Shown here: positions 1 to 14,098 of the stretch, piece after piece
How positions within the stretch are numbered: the stretch's first letter is position 1
How the letters are laid out: each line of letters starts with the position of its first letter
Source: JACPSX01 sp035288405 [NCBI: bacterium]
GTDB lineage: Bacteria > JACPSX01
Direction: 5' to 3'
DNA length: 14,098 nucleotides
NCBI GenBank assembly: GCA_035288405.1
Contig: DATEAK010000145.1
Span: 1-14,098 of the forward strand
Notes under the pieces: generated by a model
Database searches by the model: none
What the model saw: only the letters and a program-made list of their open reading frames with translations
What the model was told of the DNA's origin: nothing
Made by a program: the position numbers and the translations under genes

Positions 1-502
1 GAATGATCCTCTCGACCCCCTTACGGGTGTTTACCTCCTCCTGCAGGGCCACCTCATCCGGGGTCCATTTCTTAAAGATCCCGCCAATGCCCACGTAGAG
101 CCCTTCGGTGTTTTCCCGGAAGACTACGAAGTTGATGTCGCCGACTCCTTTCCCCTTCAGGGGACAGAGAGAGTTGTGCAGGAGACGGACCGGGCGGTGA
201 TTGATGAACAGATCCAGTTGGAAACGCATTTCCAGTAGAATATCCCGAGCGTGTGACATGTCAGGGATGCGGGGATCGCCAAGGGCACCCAGGAATATGG
301 CGTCGTAGTTTTGCCGAAAGTCGGCAAAGGTGCCGGGGGGAAGAGCGACTCCGGTCCGCAAGGTGCGTTCGGCACCCAGGTCGAACAGCACAAGCTGCAG
401 CGGGGTTCCCATCACGTCTCTAAAGGTCTCCAGGACCTTGATGGCTTCCTGTGTCACGTCTACCCCGATGCCGTCGCCGGGGATGACGGCGATTCTCGCC
501 AT
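1..502 (-). CDS. Isocitrate/isopropylmalate dehydrogenase-family protein, 3' part cut by window edge
   Basis: This gene begins at the ATG at 502 on the minus strand and runs off the window after 167 codons. Its product opens with MARIAVIPGDGIG, the nucleotide-side hallmark of the beta-decarboxylating dehydrogenase family (isopropylmalate, isocitrate, homoisocitrate, tartrate/D-malate dehydrogenases). Further in it shows GALGDPRIPD, RPVRLL and FRENTEGLYVG; the ENTEG form resembles isocitrate and tartrate-type members more than classical LeuB. These enzymes oxidise a 2-hydroxyacid with NAD(P)+ and usually decarboxylate it. The C-terminal part that would show cofactor choice is missing, so the substrate is not assigned. 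The start is supported by AGGAG seven bases upstream, overlapping the TAG of the preceding gene ten bases away, which suggests translational coupling. As last visible gene of the operon it may supply the 2-oxoacid for the oxidoreductase upstream (inference). Confidence 0.88.
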   Translation of the reverse strand, partial: MARIAVIPGDGIGVDVTQEAIKVLETFRDVMGTPLQLVLFDLGAERTLRTGVALPPGTFADFRQNYDAIFLGALGDPRIPDMSHARDILLEMRFQLDLFINHRPVRLLHNSLCPLKGKGVGDINFVVFRENTEGLYVGIGGIFKKWTPDEVALQEEVNTRKGVERII

Positions 503-512
503 GGGCGTTCTC

Positions 513-2750
513 CTATTTCGGACGCAGGTCCATGACCCGCTTGGCTTTGCCAATACTGCGCTCGATGGATCCCCTCTCAACCACGGAGATTTTCGGTGAC
601 ACGGAGATGACGCCCTGAAACTTCTTCCGGATTTTTTCAGCCAACTCTATGATGGCGGTGGGGCCACCGCGGTAAATTTCGGGTTTGGCCTCGACCCGGA
701 TCTCCAGTTCATCACGTTGCTTCTCATGACCCAGGACCAACAAGTAAATGGGCTCGATCTCGGTAAAGGCAAACAGGAGAGTTTCTACTTGAGAGGGGTA
801 TAAGTTGACTCCCCTGAAAATAATCATGTCGTCGCTGCGACCCAGGACTTTGCCCATGCGCACCAGGGTGCGCCCGCACTCGCAGGGGCTCCAATCCAGG
901 GTGGTGATGTCCCGGGTGCGGTAGCGGAGGACCGATGTGGCTTCCTTGGTGAGTGTGGTGAGCACCAGTTCTCCCGGTTCGCCGAGGCCGACGGGTTCCA
1001 GGGTATTGGGATCGATCAGCTCGGGGTAGAAGTGATCCTCGTTGATATGAAGACCGTTTTGTGCTTCGCATTCCACGGAGACTCCGGGCCCGATGACCTC
1101 CGTCAGACCGTAAATATCATGGGCTTTCAGACCCAATTTTTCCTCGATCTGACGGCGAGCTTCGGAAGTCCAGGGTTCGGCTCCGAAGAATCCGACCCGG
1201 AGCTTGAGCTTCCGAGGATCGATTCCCATGCTCTCCATGGTTTCCGCTAGGTAGAGGGCGAAGGATGGAGTGCAGCTCAGGACCGTGGAGCCCAGATCCT
1301 GCATGAACAGGATTTGCCTGTCCGTAGCGCTCGCCGACATGGGGATCACCGTGGCCCCAAGACGCTCGGCCCCCATATGGAAGCCGAGACCTCCTGTAAA
1401 CAGACCGTAGCCGTAGCCGTTTTGCACCACGTCTTCTTGGGTGACTCCGCCGGCAGTGAGCGTGCGGGCCATGAGATTGCTCCATAGATCCAGGTCTTTG
1501 CGCGTGTACCCAGTCAGAACGGGTTTTCCGGTAGTTCCCGAGGAGGCATGGAGTCGGACGATTTCTTTGAGTGGAACGGCAAAGAGCCCGAACGGATAGG
1601 TCTTGCGAAAATCGTCCTTCAGTGTGAAGGGCAGGCGCTTTATATCATCCAGGGAGCGGATATCGTTCTCTTTCAGTCCTCTTTCCTTGAGAGCTGCCTG
1701 GTAGAAGGGAACCTTTTCAGAAACACGCCGCACTGTGTCCCGCAGCCTCCGAAGCTGGAGGGTTCTCAGCTCTTCACGGGAGATGCACTCCATCTCTTTT
1801 TCCCAATACATGGCCTTTCTCCTTCGAATGGGAACGAACTTTATCGTGGAAGGCTGAGTTTGTGAGGATGCGCAACTCTGAAGTTTCTGCCATTCCTCTT
1901 GTACATTTCTTTCCAGAGCTTCGATATCCGCCGAGGTGAGATGTTGGAATCTCCCCTGGGGGTCTAAATAATCTTGCAAGGATACGTGATTTTCCTGGAC
2001 CGTGATCCGATAGGTTTGCCCGCAGCGGACCTCGTAAAGCGGAAAGTAACGGCTTGTGACTGCCAGCCTTCCCAAGGTGACCGTCAGTGAGGGGTCGCAC
2101 TTCCACCCCGGTGGACAGGGAGCCAGAAGATGGATAAATCGAAACCCCCGCATCTCCCGGGCTGTTTTGAATTTCGCGACGAGGTCCTCGGGAAAGGCTA
2201 CACAGGTCGTGGCCCCGTAAGGGATCCGATGGGCGGCCATGATACCCATGATATTTTTCTTCGCTTGGCTCTTGGGGGCAGGCAGTGGAGTCGTCGTTGT
2301 CCAAGCCCCCTGCGGTGTGGCCGAGCTCCGCTGGATTCCCGTGTTCATGTATGCTTCATTGTCATAGCAGACAAACAGGAAGTCGTCATTCCGTTCTGCA
2401 GCAGCAGACAGAGCTTGTAAACCAATGTCGAAAGTCCCCCCGTCTCCCGCCCAGGCCATGACTAGAGTTTCGTCGTCCCCCTTGGCGACAAGGCCTGCCT
2501 TCACGCCGGCAGCCGTTGACGCAGCAGCTTCAAAAGCCACGTGGAGCAAAGGGACCCGCAGCGAGGAGAACGGATAAGAGCCATCAAAAACAGCCCAGCA
2601 GGAGGGGGGAATGAGGACAATGGTCCTGTCACCGAGAGCTTTCAGCGCCAGACGCATGGCCAGGTTGGCCCCGCAGCCTGCGCAGGCCAGGTTGCCGGCC
2701 CCCACCAGTTCCACTTCAGGGAGAAACACGGGGGGTTGAGCGCCGTTCAT
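513..2750 (-). CDS. 2-oxoacid oxidoreductase beta subunit (TPP-binding) in frame with phenylacetate-CoA ligase-like protein
   Basis: One uninterrupted 745-codon frame encodes two proteins that are normally separate. Residues 1-313 are a PorB/PadI-type beta subunit: Fe-S cysteines C23, C26, C51 and probably C212, the TPP/Mg motif GDGGTFDIG (102-110), CYDNEAYMN (128-136) and CPPGWK (212-217). Residues 314-745 are a complete PaaK-like adenylate-forming ligase starting MYWEKEMECISREEL, with SSGTTGKP (403-410), YGLTE (547-551), a DDMIIFRGVNLYPSQVE segment and a C-terminal GKAKRV (734-739) holding the expected catalytic lysine. Both halves have normal family length, joined by about 20 residues resembling neither. 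The beta half binds TPP and, with alpha, decarboxylates a 2-oxoacid to acyl-CoA; the ligase makes an (aryl)acyl-CoA from acid, ATP and CoA. The start has GGAGG six bases upstream and overlaps the alpha stop as ATGA. A good ribosome site lies inside, before codon 314, so free ligase may also be made. A lost stop or a one-base sequence error could explain the join. Confidence 0.9.
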   Translation of the reverse strand: MNGAQPPVFLPEVELVGAGNLACAGCGANLAMRLALKALGDRTIVLIPPSCWAVFDGSYPFSSLRVPLLHVAFEAAASTAAGVKAGLVAKGDDETLVMAWAGDGGTFDIGLQALSAAAERNDDFLFVCYDNEAYMNTGIQRSSATPQGAWTTTTPLPAPKSQAKKNIMGIMAAHRIPYGATTCVAFPEDLVAKFKTAREMRGFRFIHLLAPCPPGWKCDPSLTVTLGRLAVTSRYFPLYEVRCGQTYRITVQENHVSLQDYLDPQGRFQHLTSADIEALERNVQEEWQKLQSCASSQTQPSTIKFVPIRRRKAMYWEKEMECISREELRTLQLRRLRDTVRRVSEKVPFYQAALKERGLKENDIRSLDDIKRLPFTLKDDFRKTYPFGLFAVPLKEIVRLHASSGTTGKPVLTGYTRKDLDLWSNLMARTLTAGGVTQEDVVQNGYGYGLFTGGLGFHMGAERLGATVIPMSASATDRQILFMQDLGSTVLSCTPSFALYLAETMESMGIDPRKLKLRVGFFGAEPWTSEARRQIEEKLGLKAHDIYGLTEVIGPGVSVECEAQNGLHINEDHFYPELIDPNTLEPVGLGEPGELVLTTLTKEATSVLRYRTRDITTLDWSPCECGRTLVRMGKVLGRSDDMIIFRGVNLYPSQVETLLFAFTEIEPIYLLVLGHEKQRDELEIRVEAKPEIYRGGPTAIIELAEKIRKKFQGVISVSPKISVVERGSIERSIGKAKRVMDLRPK
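1809..1824 (-). promoter_or_regulatory. Internal ribosome binding site and start codon for the ligase half
   Basis: On the minus strand AAGGAG (1819-1824) stands seven bases before an ATG (1811-1809) that begins the typical PaaK N-terminus MYWEKEM. It sits inside the longer beta-ligase frame. This is what a separate ligase gene would need, so independent initiation is likely whether or not the fused product is also made. In the next frame (one base later) a TAA lies at 1843-1841, 30 bases before this ATG. A normal beta-subunit stop there would be restored by removing one base upstream. Confidence 0.6.
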
Positions 2751-3919
2751 TTTGTTCCTCCAAACCAGAGAGACCGGCAGGAATCCAGCTTTTTCTCCCA
2801 GGCCATGAGGATGGTTTCTTCGATCATCTCCCGGGATACCGGCGCGCCGCCGAGCCCCATGACACCGGAGAAAATGTGCGGCATCCGGTGGTGGCCATAG
2901 AGCGCTGACTTGAGTTCTTGTGCCAGGGTTCCCCCTTGACCATAGGACACAGCCCTGTCCAGAACCAGGAGTGTTTCCACGCCCGAGACTGCTCGACGAA
3001 CTTCTTCCGTGGGAAAAGGTCTCAAGACCCTCACTCGCAGAAGCCCTACAGGGATCCCCCGGTCCCGAAGCCTGTCGACGGCTTCCCGTGCTGTGCCTGT
3101 GACCGAACCTGAGATGACCACCAAAAGGGTTGCAGGCTCGGCGCGATACAGCTCGATCAGCCCGTAGGGACGTCCAAATTGCCGGCCAAATTCGTTGCCC
3201 ACCTCTGCGATCCAGTCCTTGGCCTGCTCCATGGAGTTCTGTAATTGATGGCGAAACTCCATGTAAGGGGCCGGTGCCGTGCCTCCACCGAAGGCGCCAG
3301 GGACGGCTACGTCAAGCTGGAAGCGCGGTTCCCAGCCGGGGAGAAAACGATCGGCTTCCTCGATATCCGGCACCTCCACCGGCTCCGCCGTGTGGGAGAG
3401 GTAGAAACCGTCCATGTTCACCATGCAGGGTAGAAGGATTTTCTCACTGATCCGGTAGGCTTGCAGGATCGAATCCAGAACTTCCTGGGCCGTCTCGCAA
3501 TAGATCTGTATCCATCCCGTGTCTCTTTGGGAAAATGAGTCGCTCTGGTCGCAGAAAATCGTCCAAGGAGGGGCTAGGGCCCGATTCACATTGACCAGGA
3601 CGATCGGTAGGCGACCACCGGCAGCCCAGTGCAGGAGTTCGTGCATGAGGGCCAGCCCCTGAGAAGATGTCGCCGTGAATGTCCGGCATCCGGTCATAGA
3701 GGCTCCAATGCAAGCGGCCATGGCGGAATGTTCGGATTCCACAGGGATAAAGCGGGCCTGGAGTTTTCCCTGAGCGCACAGGTCCGAGAGGCTCTCCACG
3801 ATGGGGCTGGAAGGGGTGATCGGATAAGCCGCAATCACCTGCACCCGGGCGAGGGCGGCAGCGATGACTGCTGCCGTGTTGCCCTCAATGACATGTGCTC
3901 CTGCTTCAAGGCCGGCCAT
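2747..3919 (-). CDS. 2-oxoacid:acceptor oxidoreductase alpha subunit (PorA/PadG-like)
   Basis: The 390-residue product matches the alpha subunit of the four-subunit pyruvate/2-oxoacid:ferredoxin oxidoreductases. It shows VIEGN near the N-terminus, AYPITPSSPI, VESEHSAM, TSSQGLALMHE and the DQSDSFSQRDTGWIQ stretch that precedes the C-terminal half. Length is normal for a separate alpha subunit. With the beta subunit encoded next, it forms the TPP-dependent active site that turns a 2-oxoacid plus CoA into acyl-CoA and CO2 in the cytoplasm. The start follows the stop of the preceding gene directly (TGA then ATG) with GGGAG six bases upstream, and its own stop overlaps the beta start as ATGA, so the genes are co-translated. 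Motifs do not fix the substrate: pyruvate, branched-chain 2-oxoacids, indolepyruvate or phenylglyoxylate are possible by family. The phenylglyoxylate type is favoured by the reductase subunit and ligase in the operon. Confidence 0.92.
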   Translation of the reverse strand: MAGLEAGAHVIEGNTAAVIAAALARVQVIAAYPITPSSPIVESLSDLCAQGKLQARFIPVESEHSAMAACIGASMTGCRTFTATSSQGLALMHELLHWAAGGRLPIVLVNVNRALAPPWTIFCDQSDSFSQRDTGWIQIYCETAQEVLDSILQAYRISEKILLPCMVNMDGFYLSHTAEPVEVPDIEEADRFLPGWEPRFQLDVAVPGAFGGGTAPAPYMEFRHQLQNSMEQAKDWIAEVGNEFGRQFGRPYGLIELYRAEPATLLVVISGSVTGTAREAVDRLRDRGIPVGLLRVRVLRPFPTEEVRRAVSGVETLLVLDRAVSYGQGGTLAQELKSALYGHHRMPHIFSGVMGLGGAPVSREMIEETILMAWEKKLDSCRSLWFGGTK

Positions 3920-5617
3920 TCAAGACTCCCTGCTCACAGAGACGTGTTCTTCAACCAGTGTAATGACCCCGCGGGGGCATTCCACGGCGCAGATGCCGCA
4001 ACCTTTGCAATGCTCATAGTCGATCCGGTACACGTCTTTTTCCTTTTCCACTGCCCGGTCGGGACAAAAAACCCAGCAAATCTCGCAGCGGGTACACAGT
4101 CCGCAGGAAAGACAGCGACGGGATTCCTGAACGGCGGACTCATGAGAAAATCCTTGGTCCACTTCAGCAAACGAACTCTCCCGCTGGCGTAAGCTAAGGC
4201 TAACATTAATGCTCCGGGGGACAGTAGGAAAATAGAAAGAATTAATTTTTCCCGACCAGGGGGTTTCTGTCCGAATTTTCTCGTTCTGGTCTCGTAAGCG
4301 CCGGTGGATTGCCCAGGCGACCTGCTTGCCGCTGGCCAGCGCGGACACCACGGTCTCTGCGCCGGAGGCAAGATCTCCACCGACGAAGAGGTTCGGGATC
4401 ATGCTCTCTTGATCGGCACTGAGCATGAGCTTTCCGACGTTGCCCCGCAGCCGGCGCAGATCCAGATCCTCCAGATTTGGTTCTTCTCCGACCGCCGCAA
4501 TAATGCTGGTGATTCCATCGATGAAGAAATCGCTGCAGGGAATCGAGAATACCTGAGGGCGACTGCCGGCCTCCGCAGTTCCGAAACGCGTGCGCCGGCA
4601 GTGCAGCCGTAATAACGGGCGGCCGTCTTCGGTTGCCTCAGCCTGCTCGATTGCTACGGGCGCAGTCAGGAACGTGAACTCGACCCCTTCGCTCTTTGCT
4701 GCATCTACTTCTTCACGGATGGCCGGCATTTCTTTCCGTGTGCGCCGGTAAACAACTTGGGTCCGTGCTCCGAGACGCAGGGCCGAGCGGGCGGCGTCGA
4801 TGGCCGTGTTTCCGCCGCCGATGACCACCACGTGTTTGCCCGGATGGGGCCGGTGATTGCTGTTAACGGAATCAAGGAATTCGAGTCCGGACAATATGCC
4901 AGGCAGCGACTCACCGGGAATGTGGAGACGCCGGCTCCTGTTTAGGCCTGTGGCCAAAAAGATCGCACCGAAGCCCTGCAGGTCTTGCATCCGCAGGTCC
5001 CGGCCCAATGACTTTTGCAACTGGAGTTCGATTCCTAGGCTGAGAATGTGGGAGATTTCTCCTGCGAGGATGTCCCGGGGCAATCGATACTCCGGGATCC
5101 CGTAATGTAAAAGTCCGCCTGGGGCTTTCCTAGCTTCAAAAATGGTGACGCCATATCCGAGTCGGCATAGATGGAAGGCGCAGGCCAAACCCGCGGGGCC
5201 GCTGCCGATGATGGCGACATGCTCGGGCCAGAGCCGGGTCGGCCGAAGAAGTTGCCAGTTGTTTTTTAGAGCTTGGTCTCCGAGATAGCGCTCGATTCCT
5301 CTGAGAGATACGGGTTCCTCGAGTTCTTTGCGAGTGCAGGCCTCTTCGCAAGGATGATTACAAACCCGGCCGCAGACTGCGGGCAGAGGATTGTTGACCA
5401 TCAAGATTTCCCATGCCTCGCGCAGATGCTCAGAGGCCAGAAGTCCGGCTATTTCTCGCATTTCCCCTCCGGTCGGACAGCCCAACTCACAGGAGGGGGT
5501 AAAGGTCTGGAATATGGGTTTCAGCGTTCGCCAAGTCCCCGTGCGATTCCAATCCATAGTCCCTGTAGAAAGGGCTATCAGCGGAGGGTTTTGAGCACTT
5601 TCTATGCCCGAGGTCAT
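3920..5617 (-). CDS. GltD-like FAD/NAD(P)H oxidoreductase fused to delta-type 2x[4Fe-4S] ferredoxin domain
   Basis: The 565-residue product combines two electron-transfer modules. Residues about 40-125 carry the N-terminal GltD-type cysteines (C43, C47, C82, C86, C90, C94). Then come an FAD-binding Rossmann fold with GSGPAG (138-143), a second nucleotide-binding fold with GGGNTAIDAA (267-276) and the GGD flavin motif (413-415). The C-terminus is PorD-like with two cysteine clusters (C502-C518 and C537, C540, C543, C547). Phenylglyoxylate:NAD(P)+ oxidoreductase has separate subunits for these roles (PadH-like reductase, PadF-like ferredoxin), so this protein probably moves electrons from the TPP site to NAD(P)+. 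The frame stays open upstream to 6079, but the first 154 codons read the gamma gene out of frame and are not protein-like. The ATG at 5617 overlaps the gamma stop as ATGA and has AAGG seven bases upstream, which decides the start. Confidence 0.92.
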   Translation of the reverse strand: MTSGIESAQNPPLIALSTGTMDWNRTGTWRTLKPIFQTFTPSCELGCPTGGEMREIAGLLASEHLREAWEILMVNNPLPAVCGRVCNHPCEEACTRKELEEPVSLRGIERYLGDQALKNNWQLLRPTRLWPEHVAIIGSGPAGLACAFHLCRLGYGVTIFEARKAPGGLLHYGIPEYRLPRDILAGEISHILSLGIELQLQKSLGRDLRMQDLQGFGAIFLATGLNRSRRLHIPGESLPGILSGLEFLDSVNSNHRPHPGKHVVVIGGGNTAIDAARSALRLGARTQVVYRRTRKEMPAIREEVDAAKSEGVEFTFLTAPVAIEQAEATEDGRPLLRLHCRRTRFGTAEAGSRPQVFSIPCSDFFIDGITSIIAAVGEEPNLEDLDLRRLRGNVGKLMLSADQESMIPNLFVGGDLASGAETVVSALASGKQVAWAIHRRLRDQNEKIRTETPWSGKINSFYFPTVPRSINVSLSLRQRESSFAEVDQGFSHESAVQESRRCLSCGLCTRCEICWVFCPDRAVEKEKDVYRIDYEHCKGCGICAVECPRGVITLVEEHVSVSRES

Positions 5618-6192
5618 GATTCCACCTTGTGAGGATGAGGAGCGCAGAGAATTACCTCCGCGTACGCTTGCCGGATTGCCTCTCGATTGCTTTCCGGCTT
5701 CACGGGAATAAAGTCGGTCATGGCAACGCACAGAGAATCCATCGTGACAATACCGGTTGCCCGGGCAAAGGCCCCGAGCATGGCTGTATTGACGATTGGA
5801 AGAGCCCGGCTTCCCAGCTCCAGATTCCAGGCGACCCGGTTCGCATCCACAGTGGCCACCCGGAAGTGAGAGGGAAGACTCAGATCCCGTGGGGCGCAAG
5901 GGCTGTTGATAACGATCCAGCCTTCCTCCCGAAATCCTGTCAGAAGATCCGTGAGGGTAAGCAAAGAGGCGTCCAGGACCAAAAGGTGGTCGGCGTTTGC
6001 CATCTCCCCACGTATCCGGATCGGCATGCGATCGGCGCGTAGGAAGGCAGTGACCGGGGCCCCGCGCCGTTCCGCCCAAAAAGAGGGGAAGGCCTGGGTA
6101 AATCGGCCTTCCTTAAAGAGAGCGGAGGCCAGGATCTTCGAAGCAATAACTGCTCCTTGTCCTCCTCTGCCATGGAACCGGATTTCCCACAT
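5614..6192 (-). CDS. 2-oxoacid:acceptor oxidoreductase gamma subunit (PorG/PadE-like)
   Basis: The 192-residue product begins MWEIRFHGRGGQGAV, the signature of the gamma domain of pyruvate/ketoisovalerate oxidoreductases. It continues with FWAERRGAPV (usually FGAERRGAPV) and NTAMLGAF. This subunit binds and positions CoA-related parts of the complex and is needed alongside alpha, beta and delta. Length is normal. It is the first gene of the minus-strand operon. The ribosome site is weak: AGGA lies about 12 bases before the ATG. This is notable because every downstream gene has a better one, so expression of the complex could be limited here (inference). The stop overlaps the next start as ATGA. 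The order gamma, delta plus reductase, alpha, beta is similar to the pad arrangement. Confidence 0.92.
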   Translation of the reverse strand: MWEIRFHGRGGQGAVIASKILASALFKEGRFTQAFPSFWAERRGAPVTAFLRADRMPIRIRGEMANADHLLVLDASLLTLTDLLTGFREEGWIVINSPCAPRDLSLPSHFRVATVDANRVAWNLELGSRALPIVNTAMLGAFARATGIVTMDSLCVAMTDFIPVKPESNREAIRQAYAEVILCAPHPHKVES

Positions 6193-6240
6193 AGAATCTA
6201 GGTATCCTGATAGGGTTATTAAACGACCGTTCGGGGAACT

Positions 6241-6301
6241 GTTTAGGCCCTAGGTTAGGCAAGCTTGCCCGCCAAACAAGGAGGTAGAGCAGAGCCTAAA
6301 C
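6241..6301. repeat. Inverted repeat with nested palindrome upstream of the gamma-subunit gene
   Basis: GTTTAGGC (6241-6248) and GCCTAAAC (6294-6301) are perfect 8-base inverted copies around a 45-base middle. Inside is a perfect 12-base palindrome, GGCAAGCTTGCC (6258-6269). The element ends where the Fnr-like palindrome begins and lies in the 149 bases between the regulator stop and the operon. There is no T-run after the arms on either strand, so it is not a typical intrinsic terminator. It could be a leader structure, an operator pair or chance. Confidence 0.4.
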
Positions 6302-6314
6302 TGATAATGATCAG
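6301..6314. promoter_or_regulatory. Fnr-like palindromic operator
   Basis: CTGATAATGATCAG is a perfect CTGAT-N4-ATCAG palindrome. It differs from the Fnr consensus TTGAT-N4-ATCAA only at the outermost base of each arm. It lies 27 bases past the stop of a Crp/Fnr-family regulator, and its centre is about 115 bases upstream of the gamma-subunit start codon. The neighbouring regulator keeps the Glu and the Arg of the recognition helix (ETVIR) used to read the TGA core. I could not place a convincing sigma-70 promoter beside it, so activation or repression cannot be told. Confidence 0.45.
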
Positions 6315-6341
6315 CTTTCTATTTTGGCATTGCCCCCAGTC

Positions 6342-7040
6342 TCAGTCAGCGATTTTTTGCAGCCGGACGGGATCTGAGATGACACAGTGTCGACCTCGGA
6401 CCCTCAGAATTCTTTTCTCTGAGAGCTTGCCCAGGAGACGGATTACGGTCTCAGGAGCAACTCCGATAGCCTCTGCCAACTCTCCGCGTGACAAGGGGAG
6501 CCTGAAACGAACTCCGTCCTTGCTTTGTTCTCCGTAATCGGCACCGAGTTTCGTGAGGAAGGTGGCCAGACGACCTTCGGCGTCTTTGAGGGCGAAATCC
6601 CGCATCTTTTCCTGGGAGTTTCGGAGTTCCTGACTCAGTAGCGAGATGATGCGCAAGGCCACATCGGAATATCGGGTTAGAAACTCGAGCAGAGCGGCTT
6701 TGGGTAAAAAGCAGATGGTACAATCTTCGACCGTTTCGGCCGTGATGGCATAAGCCGGGTGGTCATAAGCTGCGATGTCCCCAATGATCTCTCCCGGCTT
6801 GACAATCTTAAGTAGATGGATTCTTCCGAACCGATCGGTTTGGGTGAGTTTTGCCGTTCCCGAACAGAGCACGTGAATTCCCAGGCACGGGTTGCCTTCG
6901 TGAAAAATGATCTGGCGCTTGGCATAAAAACTGGGGTAAATCTGGTGTCGGTAATCATCGAGCTGCTGGGAGTTGTCCTCCGCGAGAATCCCGTTGCGGC
7001 GCAGGGGGCAGAGTTCCCACCGGCATTTCAGCATGGTCAT
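6342..7040 (-). CDS. Crp/Fnr-family transcriptional regulator
   Basis: The product (232 residues from the ATG at 7040) has an N-terminal cyclic-nucleotide-binding-type beta roll, a dimerisation helix and a C-terminal winged helix. The helix-turn-helix is at about residues 184-206 (SRGELAEAIGVAPETVIRLL). The Arg-Ser pair that grips cAMP in CRP is absent. Cysteines C6 and C11 lie near the N-terminus, and C107 (ETVEDCTI) aligns with Fnr C122, but the full four-cysteine set with Fnr spacing is not there. Oxygen sensing by a [4Fe-4S] cluster is therefore possible but unproven. The frame extends upstream to a TTG at 7070; the ATG at 7040 is preferred because AAGGG sits just before it, and ATG 7034 is an alternative. 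It lies in the same orientation as the oxidoreductase operon and divergent from the hyu cluster, so it is the obvious candidate regulator of one or both. Confidence 0.9.
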   Translation of the reverse strand: MTMLKCRWELCPLRRNGILAEDNSQQLDDYRHQIYPSFYAKRQIIFHEGNPCLGIHVLCSGTAKLTQTDRFGRIHLLKIVKPGEIIGDIAAYDHPAYAITAETVEDCTICFLPKAALLEFLTRYSDVALRIISLLSQELRNSQEKMRDFALKDAEGRLATFLTKLGADYGEQSKDGVRFRLPLSRGELAEAIGVAPETVIRLLGKLSEKRILRVRGRHCVISDPVRLQKIAD

Positions 7041-7464
7041 GCGTCCCTTCGGATCTCTCCGGGATGGCAATGCCCGTCAAGCCTTTCGAAGAACAACCAA
7101 AAAAATCGTAACATTGGCCGGGGTCCCGGTACAGAATGTAGTTACATCATTTTCTTGGGCCATTTTCCTTACCTTGATCCTGTCGCAGGAGAGAAAAAGA
7201 AGGAATGTCAAGCAGCGCTGAAAGGAAGGGAAAACCAAGCAGAGACGACAGCAGACTCGGGACTTTGTCTGGGAAAAATCTGTTAAAAAAATAATTCTGC
7301 TTCCCTATTGAGAAGCAAGGATTTCTTATGATAAGGTTGCGTCTGTTTTTGTGGTTCCTTCCCTGAAATTACCTTTCTGATTCCCTGTAAATAACTGGAA
7401 TCAGAGTATTTGGCCGGGGGGTAGTCTGCCAGCCCATTTTCATGCAATTTAAGGAGAGCGTTGG
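7041..7464. other. Non-coding divergent intergenic region
   Basis: These 424 bases separate the regulator from the hyu cluster and must hold both promoters. No coding sequence is convincing. Short inverted repeats seen are ATGTA-N2-TACAT (7136-7147), TCCTG-N3-CAGGA (7178-7190), TGCTTC-N8-GAAGCA (7298-7317), CTTAT-N-ATAAG (7325-7335) and the stronger one at 7376-7405. The stretch around 7190-7240 is purine-rich on the plus strand. A weak plus-strand promoter is conceivable (TTGTCT at 7265-7270, AATAAT at 7290-7295), but the 19-base spacer is long, so I do not call it. Confidence 0.6.
7376..7405. promoter_or_regulatory. Operator-like inverted repeat upstream of hyuA
   Basis: TCTGATTCC (7376-7384) and GGAATCAGA (7397-7405) are perfect 9-base inverted copies separated by 12 A/T-rich bases. 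The element ends 59 bases before the first hyuA-like start codon. That position and symmetry suit a dimeric regulator site spanning about three helical turns. It could also fold as an RNA hairpin in the leader, but no T-run follows. The outer CTGAT/ATCAG bases match the half-sites of the Fnr-like palindrome at 6301-6314 at a different spacing. Confidence 0.45.
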
Positions 7465-9537
7465 ATGATCAAGACCACGATTGACGTGGGTGGGACATTT
7501 ACGGACTGTCTCGTCCTTGACGAGCAGGGGGAAGTTCATGCGTTTAAATCCCCGACCACACCGGAAGACCCCACACTGGGTCTAGAGAACGCCTTGAAAA
7601 AAGCGGCAGCTTTTTTCGGCATGGAGTTGCCTCAATTCATGTCCAATGTGGGACTTCTTATTGCCCACGGCACTACCTTGTCCACGAATGCCCTGCTGAC
7701 CGGACGGATTGCCAAAGTCGGGCTTATGGCCACCAAAGGGTTTCGGGACACCATTGAGATTCGCCGGGGCTTCAAAAATCTCCGGACCTCCCGCTTTAAC
7801 GTGTTCGTTCCTCCGTACAAGCCCCTTGTGCCCCGCTACTTGCGACTCCCCGTGGAAGAAAGGATCATTCATACGGGCGAAGTCTTAAAGCCTCTGAAGG
7901 AAGAGGATATCTACGCAGCAATTAAGAGATTTAAGGAAGAAAAAGTCGAAGCGGTGGCTATCTGCTTTCTGCACAGCTACATCAACCCGGATCATGAAAA
8001 GCGCGCCCTGGAGATCTGCAAGCAGGAAATGAGCGGCACCTATGTAACCGCTTCTCACGAAGTACTCCCCGTCTACAGGGAATATGAGCGCTTCAGCACC
8101 ACGGTGGTCAGCGCTGCCGTAGGACCGATTACGGCATATTACCTGAAGTCCCTAACGAATCGTCTTAGGGGGCTCGGGTTCAAGGGGACGCTCTACATGG
8201 TTCAGGGCGGCGGCATGGTTCAATCCGTGGAGGAATCATCACGCCGGGCGGTCTCTCTCATCTGCTCAGGCCCGGCTGCTGCTCCCGCGGGTGCTATCCG
8301 GTTGGGTCAGTGCATCAACAGCGACAACCTGTTCTCTGTAGACATGGGCGGCACAAGCTACGACGTCTGCCTGATCCGGAACGGTGAGATCCCGACCACG
8401 GATTATAACTGGGTAGGGGATGAACGGGTGGCCATGAAGCTGGTCGATGTTCCCAGCGTGGGAGCCGGCGGAGGGAGCATTGCCTGGATCGATTCCCTGG
8501 GGCTCTTGCAGGTGGGTCCCCAAAGCGCGGGCGCTGATCCGGGACCCGTCTGTTACGGGAAGGGCGGCACTCAGCCCACGGTGACCGACGCGGACCTGAT
8601 CCTGGGCTTCGTGCCTGCGGACTATTTTCTAGGAGGCGAGATTACTTTGACGGCGGATCTGGCCGAGAAGGCGATCCGCACCGTGGGGGAGTCTCTGGGG
8701 TTCGATGTGCCGACCACGGCCCAGACGATTTTCACCACGATCAATTCCGTGATGGCCGACAAGATGACCGAGATCTCCACCAAGCGGGGCTACGACGTGC
8801 GGGACTTTGCCCTGGTGGTGGGTGGGGGAGCGGGACCGGTGCACGGCGCTCACTTGGCCGAGCTGTTGGAGATTCCTACGGTGATCATCCCCCGCTATGC
8901 GGCCACCTACAGCGCCTTTGGAATGCTGAACATGGAAGTGGGGCGAGACTTTGCCCGCTCCATTATTTCCCGCAAGAGTTTTTTGGATCTGGAGCGGGTC
9001 AACCGGCTCTTTGCGGAGATGGAAGTGGAGGGCCGGCAGATTGTAGCGGATCTTGGAATTTCCCCCAAGGACACGGTGATAAAGCGGTCGCTGGAGATGC
9101 GTTATTTGGGTCAGTTCCACGAGGTGGAAGTGAGCGAGGTGCCGGACGGGAAGATTGGTTCCAAGGAACTGGAGGAGATTGTGCAGGCGTTTCACCGCCG
9201 CCATCAGGATCTCTTTACGTTCAACATGCCGGGACGCGATGTAGAGTTTTTGAATGCGCGTCTGAAGGCAACGGCGCGCCAGGATCCTCTGAAGCTCGCC
9301 GAGATTCCGCGGGCGAAAGGCAAGGCCGATGAGGCCCTCAAGCGCCGGCGTTCCATCCTGTGGAATCTCACCAAGGGATATGAAGAGACCCCGATCTACG
9401 ACGGCACCCGGCTGGCCTGCGGACACCGGATCAAGGGCCCGGCGATCATTGAAGAGCCCTTGACGACGGTGGTGATTCCTGCTTCGTATGTGTGCGCCGT
9501 GGACGCTGTGAAAAATTACATCCTCACCCGGAGGTAA
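7465..9537 (+). CDS. hyuA: HyuA-like hydantoinase/oxoprolinase/ketone carboxylase ATP-binding subunit (copy 1)
   Basis: The 690-residue product is a full-length hydantoinase A/oxoprolinase-family protein with the actin-like ATPase fold. Visible motifs are DVGGTFTD (7-14), HGTT (68-71), SGPAAAP (268-274), DMGGTSYDV (293-301), GAGGGSIAW (333-341) and GGGAGPVHG (453-461). These bind the ATP phosphates and nucleotide. Relatives are the ATP-dependent hydantoinases, 5-oxoprolinase, and the ATP-using subunits of acetone and acetophenone carboxylases. The reaction is ATP-driven phosphorylation or activation of an amide or carbonyl substrate; which one cannot be read from the sequence. The start has AAGGAG eight bases upstream. 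It is the first gene of the plus-strand cluster, seven bases from the HyuB gene, whose product should be its partner. It is diverged from the second HyuA gene, with more than half of residues shared by eye. Confidence 0.93.
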   Translation: MIKTTIDVGGTFTDCLVLDEQGEVHAFKSPTTPEDPTLGLENALKKAAAFFGMELPQFMSNVGLLIAHGTTLSTNALLTGRIAKVGLMATKGFRDTIEIRRGFKNLRTSRFNVFVPPYKPLVPRYLRLPVEERIIHTGEVLKPLKEEDIYAAIKRFKEEKVEAVAICFLHSYINPDHEKRALEICKQEMSGTYVTASHEVLPVYREYERFSTTVVSAAVGPITAYYLKSLTNRLRGLGFKGTLYMVQGGGMVQSVEESSRRAVSLICSGPAAAPAGAIRLGQCINSDNLFSVDMGGTSYDVCLIRNGEIPTTDYNWVGDERVAMKLVDVPSVGAGGGSIAWIDSLGLLQVGPQSAGADPGPVCYGKGGTQPTVTDADLILGFVPADYFLGGEITLTADLAEKAIRTVGESLGFDVPTTAQTIFTTINSVMADKMTEISTKRGYDVRDFALVVGGGAGPVHGAHLAELLEIPTVIIPRYAATYSAFGMLNMEVGRDFARSIISRKSFLDLERVNRLFAEMEVEGRQIVADLGISPKDTVIKRSLEMRYLGQFHEVEVSEVPDGKIGSKELEEIVQAFHRRHQDLFTFNMPGRDVEFLNARLKATARQDPLKLAEIPRAKGKADEALKRRRSILWNLTKGYEETPIYDGTRLACGHRIKGPAIIEEPLTTVVIPASYVCAVDAVKNYILTRR

Positions 9538-9544
9538 AAAGAGA

Positions 9545-11302
9545 ATGGCTGATGTTCGAGTCAATCCCCTGACATTGTCCACCGTATGGCACTCCTTCCA
9601 GAACATCTGTAAGGAGATGCGTCACGTCATCGATCGTACTTCCCAAAACTATCTGATTGCCCAACTCCACGACGTCTCTGTGGGGATCTGGGACGGCGCG
9701 GGGCGCACCGTAGCGATCCCCATTGGTCTCTCGGTCCAGTACCTGGGAGGGAAGCTCTCCGTGGAGTACGTGCTGAACAAGTTCAAAGGGAACTTAAACC
9801 CCGGGGATGTGATCCTGGTCAATGACCCTTACCACGGGTACTGCTGCCATCTGCCCGACTGGGGGTTTTATCGCCCCATTTTTTACAAGGGGGAACTGCT
9901 GTTCTTTACGCTGTGCCGGGCTCACCAGATGGACACCGGGGGAGCCTATCCGGGGGGCTATTTCCCGAATGCTTATGATATTCATGCCGAGGGGCTGTGC
10001 ATTCCCGGGATCAAGGTGATGGAGGGGGATAAAGAGCGCGAGGATGTCATGGAGTTGATCCTGAACAATGTGCGCTGGCCTCAGGGAACCCGGATCGACA
10101 ACTACGCTCAGATTGCCGCCACCCGGTTGTGCGAGCAGCGAATCGTGGGACTCTTGGATAAGTATGGTAAGGAGACCGTGCTGGCTTGCGTGGAGGAAAT
10201 GATGGCCCGCACGGAGAAGGCCGTACGCTCGGCGATTGAGAAGATTCCCGACGGGACCTATTACGGGGAAGCGGCCACGGACGACGACGGCACGGAGCTC
10301 GATGTGCCCGTCTGGGTGCGTTGCGATATTACCGTGAAAGGGGACACGCTCAAGGTGGATTTTTCCAAGAGCGACAAGCAGCGCAAGGGGTTTGTGAACT
10401 GTGTGTTTAACTCTACGTTCAGCAATGCTCTCTCGGGTCTGTTCATGTTCCTGAACCCGGCGCTGGGCGAGTACCATAACGAGGGGAGTTTGAGGCCCAT
10501 CACGGTCTACGCCCCTCCCGGGTCAGTACTGAATGCCCAATACCCGGCCACTGTGGGTGCCTCTCCGGTAAGCATGGGGCATCAGATCATCGAGTCCGTG
10601 GTGAGCGCCATGTCGAAAGCGGTTCCCGATCGGGCCATCGGCTGCTGGGGGAAGCGCTACGGGCACTACATTTTCGGTCTGGATCCCCGCACGAACGAGA
10701 AGTACGTGGTGACCACCTTTGACATGGACGGTGGAGCCGGTGCGGTCAGAGGATTTGACGGCTTTGAAGGGGCGACTTCCATCGGCACGCTCGGGGAAGT
10801 GAACAAGGGGAATGTGGAAGAAGTGGAGATGCGCTTTCCCTGGAGAACCGTGTGCTGGGAGTTTGCCACGGACACCTCTGGAGCCGGTCTGTGGCGGGGT
10901 GCCTCGGGGATGCACTGGGAGGTCGAAAACGTCGGAGGCGACGCAGGAATCGCTACGGGAAGCTCCGATGGCGAGTTAGTGCGGGCTCCAGGCGCCCTCG
11001 GAGGAGAGTCAACGCCCAACTCAAAATCCTTTTTAACGCGGAACGGAGAATCCCAGCGGATACGCGGCCACCGGCTCTATGAACTTAAGCCCGGCGACGT
11101 CATCCTGAAGATCAGCGGTGGTGGAGCGGGTGTGGGGAACCCCATGGAGCGGGATCCGGAAAAAGTTCGCTGGGACGTCTACAACGAATTTATCAGTATT
11201 GAGAAGGCACGGGATATGTACGGGGTGGTCATTGATCCCGTGACCCTCACTGTGGATCAGGAAAGGACGAAGGCTCTTCGGTCTCAGAAAAAAGAAACGT
11301 AG
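9545..11302 (+). CDS. hyuB: HyuB-like hydantoinase B/oxoprolinase-family subunit
   Basis: The 585-residue product is a full-length HyuB-type subunit. It carries the conserved metal/active-site segments NDPYHGYCCHLPD (93-105) and AHQMDTGGAYPGGY (126-139), in which D94, H102, D105, H127 and D130 are candidate ligands, and the glycine-rich C-terminal ISGGGAGVGNP (about 523-533). In hydantoinases and 5-oxoprolinase this subunit completes the catalytic site; in acetone carboxylase the related subunit holds the metal where carboxylation occurs. YCC in place of the common glycine-rich GGT before HLPD is a family variation that may mark substrate type (inference). The start lies seven bases after the hyuA stop, and its ribosome site GGAGG overlaps the end of hyuA, so the two are coupled. 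It is the only HyuB in the window although there are two HyuA genes. Confidence 0.93.
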   Translation: MADVRVNPLTLSTVWHSFQNICKEMRHVIDRTSQNYLIAQLHDVSVGIWDGAGRTVAIPIGLSVQYLGGKLSVEYVLNKFKGNLNPGDVILVNDPYHGYCCHLPDWGFYRPIFYKGELLFFTLCRAHQMDTGGAYPGGYFPNAYDIHAEGLCIPGIKVMEGDKEREDVMELILNNVRWPQGTRIDNYAQIAATRLCEQRIVGLLDKYGKETVLACVEEMMARTEKAVRSAIEKIPDGTYYGEAATDDDGTELDVPVWVRCDITVKGDTLKVDFSKSDKQRKGFVNCVFNSTFSNALSGLFMFLNPALGEYHNEGSLRPITVYAPPGSVLNAQYPATVGASPVSMGHQIIESVVSAMSKAVPDRAIGCWGKRYGHYIFGLDPRTNEKYVVTTFDMDGGAGAVRGFDGFEGATSIGTLGEVNKGNVEEVEMRFPWRTVCWEFATDTSGAGLWRGASGMHWEVENVGGDAGIATGSSDGELVRAPGALGGESTPNSKSFLTRNGESQRIRGHRLYELKPGDVILKISGGGAGVGNPMERDPEKVRWDVYNEFISIEKARDMYGVVIDPVTLTVDQERTKALRSQKKET

Positions 11303-11355
11303 CAGCCCGGTATTTAGAAATTACTGTTCTTTTCGTTCGTGCGGAGGAGGGTCGC

Positions 11356-11769
11356 ATGGTGGAAAATCTGGCGAGTTGGGCAGCATTGATGCTCCGTGTC
11401 GGGGGTGGTATTGTTTTCATGGCTCACGGCTTCCCGAAGCTCCTGCGCACGGAAAAGAAGCCTGAGGTTGGCAGGACCCGGCTCAAAGACGCCATTGAAA
11501 AACTCGGGTTTCCGTACCCGCTCTTTTTTGCTTATTTGGTCGCAGCCATGGAATTATTGGGCGGAATCTTTCTCGTTCTGGGTCTCTTCACTCCGTGGGT
11601 TTCCTTGATTCTTGCGATCGTCATGTTGTTTGCCACCTTTTGGATGCAAAAGATTCACGGTTTCGAGTTGGGGGCCGATTTCCCCTTTGCCCTGCTCTTT
11701 ATGATGATCGCTCTCATTTTCCTGGGGGGCGGACAATTCAGCTTGGGAGCTTTGCTCGGTACTCAGTGA
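11356..11769 (+). CDS. DoxX-family small integral membrane protein
   Basis: The 137-residue product is hydrophobic with about four predicted membrane segments: around residues 8-25, 54-72, 74-92 and 113-130. A charged cytoplasmic-type loop (RTEKKPEVGRTRLKDA) follows the first. Features such as LRVGGGIVFMAHGFPKL, a PLFFAYLVAAMELLGGIFLVLGLFTP-like segment and a final short helix are typical of the DoxX family. Biochemical roles of most DoxX relatives are unknown; some are thiosulfate:quinone oxidoreductase subunits, but that cannot be assumed. The start has GGAGGAGGG four bases upstream. It lies 53 bases after hyuB and 18 before the second hyuA, in the same direction, so it is probably part of the operon. 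The position is where acetone carboxylase operons have a small soluble subunit, but this protein does not resemble one. Confidence 0.85.
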   Translation: MVENLASWAALMLRVGGGIVFMAHGFPKLLRTEKKPEVGRTRLKDAIEKLGFPYPLFFAYLVAAMELLGGIFLVLGLFTPWVSLILAIVMLFATFWMQKIHGFELGADFPFALLFMMIALIFLGGGQFSLGALLGTQ

Positions 11770-11787
11770 TTTTGGAGAACGAATCGC

Positions 11788-13851
11788 ATGTATAGAGCCT
11801 GCATCGACGTGGGGGGGACATTTACGGACGGTCTCATCATGGACGGGCAGGGGAGTTTGAGAGCGTTTAAAACCCCCTCGACTCCCGCGGATTCCTCCAT
11901 CGGCATGCTGAACTCACTGGAATTAGCGGCTAAGGGTTACGGCAAGACTCCCGAGGAGTTCTTGGCCGACATAGACCTCATTGTCCACGGCACCACGCTG
12001 GCCACCAATGCTCTGCTCACCGGCAAAGGAGCTAAGGTGGCCGTGGTGACGACCAAGAATTTTCGGGATGTGATTGAGATTCGTCGCGGCTTCAAGAACA
12101 TTCGCACCTCCATGTTCAATTTATTTGTTCCTCCCTATAAGCCTCTAGTGCTCCGTCGTCTGCGCTTCGGTGTTGAGGAGAGGACACTGTTCAACGGCGA
12201 GATTGCCACCCCCCTGAACGAACGGGAAGTACGGGAGGCCGTAGGCAAGATCAAAGCGGCGGGTGTGGAAGCGATTGCGGTTTGTTTCCTCCACTCTTAT
12301 ATCAACAAGACCCATGAAGACCGGGCCGCGGCGATTTGCCGGGAACTGGCGCCCGATCTCTACGTCACGACCTCCCATCAAGTCCTGCCCGTCTGGCGGG
12401 AGTATGAGCGCTTCAGCACCACCGTGGTCAGCGCCGGCATAGGCCCCATTTCGGCCCGCTACCTGAACCGGCTGGAGGGGCGTCTCAAGGAGAGGGGATT
12501 TCAAGGGACGCTTCTGATCGTGCAAGCCAACGGCCTGGTGCAGACTCCGCAGGAATCCGTGCGCCGGGCCGTCTATCTTCTGGGATCAGGGCCCGCAGCG
12601 GCCCCATCAGCGGCCACCTACTGCGGCCAGCTGGTAGGGAAGGATCATTTGCTCTCCATCGATATGGGTGGAACGAGCCTGGACGTCAGTTTGGTCCGGC
12701 GGGGGGAAATCCCCATGACGACGGAGAGTTGGGTGGGAGACGAGCGGGTGGACATCAAGATGGTGGACGTGCACAGTGCCGGAGCCGGTGGCGGTAGTAT
12801 TGCCTGGATCGACCCCCTGGGCTTGCTCCGAGTGGGTCCGCAAAGCGCCGGGGCGGAGCCGGGGCCTGCCTGCTACGGCAAAGGAGGACAGGAACCCGCT
12901 GTGACCGACGCCGATCTCCTGCTGGGCTATATCCCGGCGGATTATTTTTTGGGAGGGGAGATCTCCCTGGATATGGATCTGGCTCGCAAAGCGGTCCAGA
13001 AGGTCGGCGACCGACTCGGCATGGATCCGATACAGACCGCCCAAGCCATCTACACGACGGTGAACTCTTTCATGGCGGACAGCATCGCCGAGATTTCCAC
13101 AAAACGGGGGTACGACTGCCGGGATTTCGCCCTCATTGTCGGAGGTGGGGCCGGCGCCGTTCATGGACCTGCCATTGCCGAACGCCTGGGGATTGCGACG
13201 GTCATGATTCCCCGGTATGCGGGCCTGTACAGTGCCTTTGGAATGTTCGCCATGGACATCGGCCGCGATTATGCCCGCTCGAACATTTGTCGCGTGGACC
13301 GGGCGGACCTGGGTCTGATCAACCGTGTCTATCGGGAAATAGAAGCCGAGGCGCGCGAGGCCATGAAGGCGATGCATGTTTCCGAGGCGGATGTGATCTT
13401 GAACCGTACGGCGGACATGCGGTACGTGGGGCAATTCCACGAAGTGGAAGTGGAAATGGCCTCGGGAACCCTGACCCAAGAGCACTTACAGGAAGCCGTG
13501 GCGAATTTTCACAAACGCCACCACGATCTCTATACCTTTTCCATGACCTTCAGAGGGGTGGAGTTTCTGAACTTCCGAGTGAAAGCTACGGCTCGCAAAG
13601 CACCCTTCAAGATCGAGGAAATTCCCCGTGGGGAAAAGAATGCGGAAGGGGCGTTCAAACGCAAGAGAAACTGCACCTTCGATGGCAAGACCTTCGATAC
13701 TCCCGTATATGACGGGGAAAAGCTTCTAGCTGCAAACGTCATCCCCGGGCCGGCGATCATTGAAGAGAAAACAACGACGGTGGTGGTACCTCCGTCCTTT
13801 GAGTGCTCTGTGGACCCGTTCAAGAACTACATTTTGACTAGGCGCAAATAA
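11788..13851 (+). CDS. hyuA: HyuA-like hydantoinase/oxoprolinase/ketone carboxylase ATP-binding subunit (copy 2)
   Basis: The 687-residue product is a second complete HyuA-family protein. It keeps all nucleotide-binding motifs: DVGGTFTD (7-14), HGTT (67-70), SGPAAAP, DMGGTSLDV (about 292-300), GAGGGSIAW and GGGAGAVHG. It therefore looks catalytically intact and is not a decayed duplicate. It aligns with copy 1 along the whole length with almost no gaps and shares long blocks (EIRRGFKN-RTS, FVPPYKPLV, EYERFSTTVVSA, EISTKRGYD). It differs at one glycine-rich stretch: QGGGMVQ in copy 1 against QANGLVQ here. GGAG lies ten bases before the start and DoxX ends 18 bases upstream. No HyuB follows; the next gene encodes a transport protein. 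It may form a heteromer with copy 1 and HyuB, or replace copy 1 for another substrate. Both are inference. Confidence 0.92.
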   Translation: MYRACIDVGGTFTDGLIMDGQGSLRAFKTPSTPADSSIGMLNSLELAAKGYGKTPEEFLADIDLIVHGTTLATNALLTGKGAKVAVVTTKNFRDVIEIRRGFKNIRTSMFNLFVPPYKPLVLRRLRFGVEERTLFNGEIATPLNEREVREAVGKIKAAGVEAIAVCFLHSYINKTHEDRAAAICRELAPDLYVTTSHQVLPVWREYERFSTTVVSAGIGPISARYLNRLEGRLKERGFQGTLLIVQANGLVQTPQESVRRAVYLLGSGPAAAPSAATYCGQLVGKDHLLSIDMGGTSLDVSLVRRGEIPMTTESWVGDERVDIKMVDVHSAGAGGGSIAWIDPLGLLRVGPQSAGAEPGPACYGKGGQEPAVTDADLLLGYIPADYFLGGEISLDMDLARKAVQKVGDRLGMDPIQTAQAIYTTVNSFMADSIAEISTKRGYDCRDFALIVGGGAGAVHGPAIAERLGIATVMIPRYAGLYSAFGMFAMDIGRDYARSNICRVDRADLGLINRVYREIEAEAREAMKAMHVSEADVILNRTADMRYVGQFHEVEVEMASGTLTQEHLQEAVANFHKRHHDLYTFSMTFRGVEFLNFRVKATARKAPFKIEEIPRGEKNAEGAFKRKRNCTFDGKTFDTPVYDGEKLLAANVIPGPAIIEEKTTTVVVPPSFECSVDPFKNYILTRRK

Positions 13852-13971
13852 CGAATAGGGGAGCCCTCAGCCATCCGCAGTCGGCTTTCAGCAAGAGGAG
13901 TTGGTTCCTTCTGTCTGGCTGATCGTGAGAGTTTTACTCTGCCGGAAATAAACGTAAAGGAGGTTGTCACC

Positions 13972-14098
13972 ATGAGGAAATGGTTGGAGAGAATTGGGGT
14001 TGCCCTGATTGCTTTCTCTTTAGCTGCGAGTATTGCCTGGGCTGCTGTTCCTCGCAGCGCCACGCTGGCCACTCACGCAGTGGGTAGTTTGTACAACG
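13972..14098 (+). CDS. TAXI-family TRAP transporter substrate-binding protein, N-terminal part only
   Basis: Only 42 codons are inside the window. They encode a clear signal peptide (MRKWLERIGVALIAFSLAAS, then IAWA with likely cleavage after AWA), followed by ATLATHAVGSLYN. That mature N-terminus is typical of TAXI-type periplasmic binding proteins of TRAP transporters. A strong AGGAGG lies eight bases before the ATG. The 120 bases between the hyuA stop and this start contain only a weak AGAGT-N3-ACTCT hairpin (13928-13940), so read-through from the hyu genes is plausible. The protein would bind a solute in the periplasm and deliver it to TRAP membrane subunits expected downstream. The likely cargo is the substrate of the HyuA/HyuB enzymes, by position only. 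Confidence 0.78.
   Translation, partial: MRKWLERIGVALIAFSLAASIAWAAVPRSATLATHAVGSLYN

Follow-up and report, generated by a model that had tools for sequence, protein, structure and literature searches.

A 2-oxoacid oxidoreductase beta subunit continuous in frame with a PaaK-type CoA ligase in two bacterial records

Analysis of 14,098 nucleotides of bacterial DNA (GenBank assembly GCA_035288405.1, contig DATEAK010000145.1, positions 1 to 14,098; hereafter the window) revealed, on the minus strand, an operon for a multi-subunit 2-oxoacid oxidoreductase (OFOR). In order, the genes encode a Crp/Fnr-family regulator (6342..7070), standing upstream of the operon proper; the gamma subunit (PorC/KorC, 5614..6192; TIGR02175 at 180.6 bits against a cut-off of 81.1); a GltD-like NAD(P)H/flavin oxidoreductase identified by profile matches (3920..5617), whose C-terminal PorD-type two-cluster ferredoxin domain represents delta (TIGR02179 PorD/KorD at 60.7 bits, cut-off 60.05); the alpha subunit (POR_N and PFOR_II domains, 2747..3919); a beta subunit continuous with a CoA ligase; and a LeuB/tartrate-dehydrogenase-like beta-decarboxylating dehydrogenase (1..505) that is cut by the window end. 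The gamma and GltD-like genes overlap by 4 nt, the GltD-like and alpha genes abut, and the end of alpha overlaps the ATG of the beta:ligase gene by 4 nt, so that the other joints of the operon are tight. Divergent from the operon, on the plus strand, lie genes for HyuA (7465-9537), HyuB (9545-11302) and a second HyuA paralogue (11788-13851), whose nearest models are those of the caprolactamase CapA/CapB (651.5, 347.9 and 654.7 bits, respectively, each against a cut-off of 1000); a DoxX gene (11356-11769) lies between the hyu genes.

The operon, including the Crp/Fnr regulator, and the divergent hyu genes are shared by a second record, L062 (JACPSX010000017.1), a 10,981-base contig from a groundwater Candidatus Tectomicrobia MAG. 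Its LeuB-like gene is full-length and scores 271.8 bits with TIGR00169 (cut-off 353.2) and 413.8 bits with the 3-isopropylmalate dehydrogenase model NF002898 (cut-off 393). Because another LeuB in the L062 bin exceeds the TIGR00169 cut-off (480.8 bits), the operon copy appears to be a paralogue that serves a different role. A LeuC-like gene (10596-10979, plus strand) directly follows the LeuB-like gene in L062 and is cut by the contig end; judged by its gene content, this operon continues into what appears to be an isopropylmalate-type module. The bin contains six LeuC-like matches at separate positions, all of them short of the TIGR02083 cut-off, a score that only one of 14 control genomes reaches.

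The gene at the centre of this study (513..2750, minus strand) starts with an ATG at 2750 and closes with a TAG whose last base is 513, has 745 codons and no internal stop, and comprises a beta-subunit domain (residues 1-297, 1860..2750), a linker (residues 298-313, 1812..1859) and a PaaK-type AMP-forming ligase domain that begins at its own internal ATG (residues 314-745, 513..1811). The initial annotation, made from the letters alone, had described one open frame joining two full-length proteins, and this description stands: NF008818 aligns residues 10-294 to positions 8-296 of its 300, and TIGR02155 (PaaK) aligns residues 321-743 to positions 1-422 of its 422. The linker, put there at about 20 residues, is indeed short, but spans about 11-17 residues according to which relative is used to set the beta end.

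The beta half contains the TPP-binding domain PF02775 (TPP_enzyme_C; 67.1 bits, cut-off 21.9), and belongs with the POR/VOR-type beta subunits, whose alpha, gamma and delta partners are all present in the operon. Cysteines C23, C26, C51 and C212 align with cysteines of relatives, and the motifs GDGGTFDIG (102-110) and YDNEAYMNTG (129-138) are present; we take these cysteines and motifs to serve the [4Fe-4S] cluster and TPP. The substrate-specific models score below their cut-offs (VOR beta NF008818, 375 of 405; pyruvate synthase PorB NF008819, 331.2 of 405).

The ligase half belongs to the AMP-forming fold family (AMP-binding, 52.5 bits against 29.9; AMP-binding_C_2, 83.9 against 25), and the solved PaaK structures 2y27 and 4r1l match residues 7-430 and 2-431 of its 432. 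It carries SSGTTGKP, IYGLTE, RYRTRD, GRSDDM and RSIGKAKR, presumably the catalytic motifs of the PaaK-type family. Because the PaaK equivalog models score below their cut-offs when the whole fused chain is scored (TIGR02155, 538.3 of 646.3; NF041878, 568.1 of 700), no substrate is assigned to it. In a tree of 26 ligases, in which long branches meet between the deeper groups according to a warning from the tool, the ligases of the window and L062 are each other's sister (100/100) and fall into a 20-row group (100/99) together with Bacteroidales and IOR-flanked ligases. The ligases of three POR operons, L022, L042 and L055, fall outside this group; since they and the fused ligases lie on different branches, beta and ligase genes probably became neighbours on at least two occasions. 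The PaaK models, together with what the excerpted text of PMC13285125 describes for a Bacteroides ligase, suggest an arylacetate kind for the 20-row group.

Relatives of the fused protein were sought in a genome scan, in which 595 stretches matched and 590 encode a relative; the best 80 of the 590 were analysed, and 71 of these loci contain a ligase match. Only genes that lie within 3.5 kb on the same strand and match queries taken from L007 and the window were scored as neighbours. Given this restriction and the short flanks of many loci, the counts are lower bounds. At least 29 of the 71 ligase loci among the best 80, L062 included, have an OFOR gene nearby (iorA in 23, iorB in 25 and a POR-type beta in 4, the sets overlapping), 42 show none, some of them with short flanks, and at least five have an aminotransferase match. 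The gene order in L007 is aminotransferase, ligase, IorA, IorB; L022 and L055 have an aminotransferase after the ligase. In L071 the OFOR operon comes directly after a phosphate acetyl/butyryl transferase gene (4523-5431, plus strand), which suggests an acyl-phosphate route in that relative.

The search for the same fused architecture in other genomes, proposed in the initial annotation, found it once, in L062, that is, in one of the 71 ligase loci among the best 80 of 590, which agrees with the remark made there that a fusion of this pair is not standard. Three stretches of viral contigs matched the search pattern and none encodes a relative. Among plasmids, 311 records match, none with a single place covering 80% of the query; the longest partial match (H4, from Ruegeria, query residues 173-745) was rejected as a fusion, being paaI followed by a separate paaK. 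L022, L042 and L055 were also rejected as fusions: beta and ligase share a frame, but stop codons lie between them. The excerpts of PMC5736913 and PMC8887013 do not concern a beta:ligase fusion.

The fused open reading frame of L062 (7261-9498) has identical architecture and exactly 745 codons, with 87% protein and 82% DNA identity to that of the window. Because it keeps the frame without a gap over 2238 aligned nucleotides at this level of DNA identity, the open frame is beyond chance. Differences between the two records at codon positions 1, 2 and 3 number 30, 19 and 128 in the beta half and 46, 21 and 154 in the ligase half; of the 297 beta codons 151 are identical, 109 synonymous and 37 replaced, and of the 432 ligase codons 244, 133 and 55, respectively. 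These patterns point clearly to purifying constraint on both halves. The linker (7 codons identical, 4 synonymous and 5 replaced of 16; 2, 3 and 5 differences by codon position) is loosely constrained, yet its frame and openness are kept. Gaps in the same alignment open seven times over the 548 columns of the two non-coding stretches and once, for 3 columns within alpha, in the coding stretches; the linker has none in 48 columns. As this span is short, the gap count is supporting rather than decisive evidence for conservation of the frame. The beta:ligase gene is a genuine fusion, conserved in a second record.

The AlphaFold2 model of the fused chain, built from a 35-row alignment (mean pLDDT 80.1, pTM 0.57), shows two mostly confident domains, the last helix of beta ending at residue 295 and the first ligase helix starting at 318. 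Residues 298-314 fall below a pLDDT of 50, so that the linker is predicted to be disordered, as do residues 1-22, 58-61, 134-144, 148-161, 405-407 and 733-736; the modest pTM tells nothing reliable about how the modelled domains dock. Thirteen loci among the best 80 of 590 have a beta match, L062 being the only fused one. The stand-alone beta subunits end at equivalents of residues 296-305 in nine of 12 cases (eight at 296-302 and L078 at 305), and since most of them stop where the linker starts, the linker looks like a past intergenic spacer. On the other side of the joint, the alignment with 4r1l, a stand-alone PaaK of solved structure, begins at the second residue after the internal ATG, which pairs with residue 6 of 4r1l. 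The simplest history would be loss of the beta stop codon, after which the spacer and its ribosome site came to be read as codons. The stand-alone betas of L073, L074 and L075, from Bacteroidetes MAGs, bear C-terminal tails of roughly 25-40 residues that are charged and largely basic; the beta C-terminus therefore tolerates additions.

We consider it fairly probable that loss of a stop codon has tethered a CoA ligase of arylacetate type to an OFOR that has an NAD(P)-type subunit, and that the tether probably serves hand-over of the acyl-CoA they share. What used to be the beta stop codon, together with the spacer and the ribosome site in it, would now form a flexible linker of about 16 residues in a chain of about 82 kDa. 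The N-terminal half of this chain would bind TPP and an Fe-S cluster as part of an oxidoreductase of alpha, beta, gamma and delta subunits, and its C-terminal half, an AMP-forming enzyme of the arylacetate-CoA-ligase kind, would be held one to one on that complex. The ligase would convert a free acid and ATP to an acyl-CoA, and the oxidoreductase would interconvert this acyl-CoA with the 2-oxoacid one carbon longer; given the OFOR genes that stand beside ligases in other loci, the two enzymes plausibly share an acyl-CoA. Tethering would favour local hand-over of acyl-CoA and CoA, and channelling of acyl-CoA on one polypeptide can reasonably be inferred.

Two mirror routes could link such a complex to the neighbouring genes. 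An NAD(P)H-type subunit resembling GltD fits an enzyme that works in the direction of oxidative decarboxylation, as in phenylglyoxylate dehydrogenase, and this precedent would favour a route in which LeuC/LeuB-type steps supply a 2-oxoacid that is oxidised to acyl-CoA. Because the directions of a GltD-type subunit and an AMP-forming ligase oppose each other, the beta and ligase halves need not act in series. The other route, from free acid through acyl-CoA to 2-oxoacid and on to LeuC/LeuB-type elongation, is favoured by the ligase's preferred direction, acyl-CoA synthesis, as the excerpts of PMC13285125 have it. A more elaborate version, to which we give little credence, would have the complex turn acid, ATP, CoA, CO2 and reductant into 2-oxoacid, or run in reverse, with the acyl-CoA unreleased, a link to LeuC/LeuB and an internal start adding free ligase; if it were true, the reverse direction would regain ATP from 2-oxoacid.

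That the fusion is an artefact, a one-base indel in sequencing or assembly that joins truly separate genes, was one option raised in the initial annotation, on the ground of a TAA in the next frame 30 bases before the ligase ATG. The window does contain this TAA, in the +1 frame at 1843..1841, although 29 bases before the ATG, and distant relatives (L022, L042 and L055) do have separate genes. The frame is nevertheless identical and gapless in L062, where the TAA is missing at the equivalent position, and it is very improbable that errors struck the same site twice independently; an indel is effectively excluded, and the option of a real fusion is the one that L062 supports. Another option raised there, that one mRNA yields both the fused protein and free ligase from the internal start, we think unlikely. 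The Shine-Dalgarno-like AAGGAG is where it was described, seven bases before the ligase's own ATG (1819..1824, minus strand; residue 314, position 1811), and contributes to Arg codons when the fused frame is read. Its predicted anti-Shine-Dalgarno pairing energy (-8.8 kcal/mol in the window, -9.5 in L062) is near that of the fused gene's own start (-9.3 in both), and counting this site itself, sites as strong or stronger precede nine of 170 ATGs in window genes and two of 126 in L062 genes. Ranked by strength among the 22 ATGs common to both fused genes, it comes first in L062 and second in the window, and no other one is at or below -8 kcal/mol in both. Against these points, simulated drift at the observed rates leaves the energy at or below -8.8 kcal/mol in 39% of runs starting from the window and 32% starting from L062, so selection on the site is not supported, and because drift alone retains such strength this often, the conservation of the site is no proof of its use. 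Another in-frame ATG, at about 1376 (minus strand; offset 1374 in the fused gene), has a predicted energy of -11.0 kcal/mol in the window and -6.3 in L062. Such sites thus come and go within the gene, and the internal site may also be what is left of the ribosome site used before the fusion.

Taking the fusion as real, it could still be a fortuitous stop-loss that is tolerated, the ligase activating a different acid earlier in the pathway and handing nothing over, much as PadJ activates its acid before phenylglyoxylate oxidation. The oxidative direction that the phenylglyoxylate dehydrogenase precedent assigns to a GltD-type subunit fits this account, as do the loosely conserved linker and the tree, in which the fused ligases stand apart from those of L022, L042 and L055, so that the neighbourhood arose separately. 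We nonetheless regard it as rather doubtful: the fused state has outlasted 18% DNA divergence with both halves under purifying constraint, and same-branch ligases lie beside IOR genes in 25 of the 71 ligase loci among the best 80 of 590. Far less probable is that the locus encodes the anaerobic phenylacetate route, with a phenylglyoxylate dehydrogenase (Pad) and a phenylacetate-CoA ligase. Pad has the same subunit types, a GltD-like one included, and the PadE, PadF, PadG and PadI models match in part, but the scores stay below the cut-offs (PadI, 220.7 of 700 bits; PadG, 300.3 of 700; PadE, 159.4 of 300). Moreover, in the L062 bin the model of the ring-opening hydrolase, TIGR03200, reaches at best 146.9 of 464.45 bits, a cut-off passed by none of the 14 control genomes, and PaaA (TIGR02156) has no match there, while three of the 14 controls pass. 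As weak evidence, these scores suggest that neither standard phenylacetate route is indicated in that bin.

The favoured reading, a ligase tethered to an OFOR, joins a known partnership to a new arrangement: ligases beside OFOR genes have been described, whereas the beta:ligase fusion is known from two sequences, the window and L062 (among the best 80 of 590), and no report of one was found in the open-licence literature searched. That an OFOR and an acid-CoA ligase act in series, and in which direction, has so far been argued largely from neighbourhood and ligase assays, going by the excerpts of PMC13285125. Finding the two enzymes fused in nature makes a physical partnership between them more credible and offers one purifiable protein for testing acyl-CoA hand-over. 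The locus also seems to exemplify how an intergenic spacer, ribosome site included, can turn into a protein linker.

Among the systems to which this locus can be compared, the NADH-dependent PadEFGHI with PadJ has the same types of subunit and likewise comes with a phenylacetate-type ligase, but there the ligase is a separate gene, and the curated Pad cut-offs are not reached here. The L022, L042 and L055 operons share the order gamma, alpha, beta, ligase and likewise have these genes on one strand; they differ in the stop codons between beta and ligase and in their ligases, which are 33-36% identical and lie on another branch of the tree, and they probably represent an independent assembly. 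The POR/VOR-type OFORs with a GltD-like subunit in L071-L079 show the order gamma-GltD-alpha-beta wherever the locus reaches, with beta subunits 57-63% identical, but none of the nine loci, some with short flanks, shows a match to the ligase, and in L073-L075 the beta carries a tail instead. Fusions within OFORs have a precedent in the PFOR homologues with fused subunits of section 2.7 of PMC13285125, which likewise show that OFOR subunit genes fuse; those described in the excerpts are among OFOR subunits, without a CoA ligase. Also comparable are the clusters of IOR and arylacetate-CoA ligase in Bacteroides and others, for which the same excerpts report that the IOR colocalises with an AMP-forming ligase, confirmed by assay as an arylacetate-CoA ligase, and argue for a biosynthetic role on the ground that AMP-forming ligases favour acyl-CoA synthesis. 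As at the locus described here, a same-branch ligase (46-55% identical for the IOR-flanked ligases of the neighbour count, best 80 of 590) stands beside a TPP-dependent 2-oxoacid oxidoreductase with which it would share an acyl-CoA. Those clusters, as excerpted, consist of separate genes with an oxidoreductase of the IOR type (IorA, IorB), whereas the window encodes a multi-subunit enzyme of the POR/VOR type that includes a GltD-like subunit and has the ligase fused to its beta subunit.
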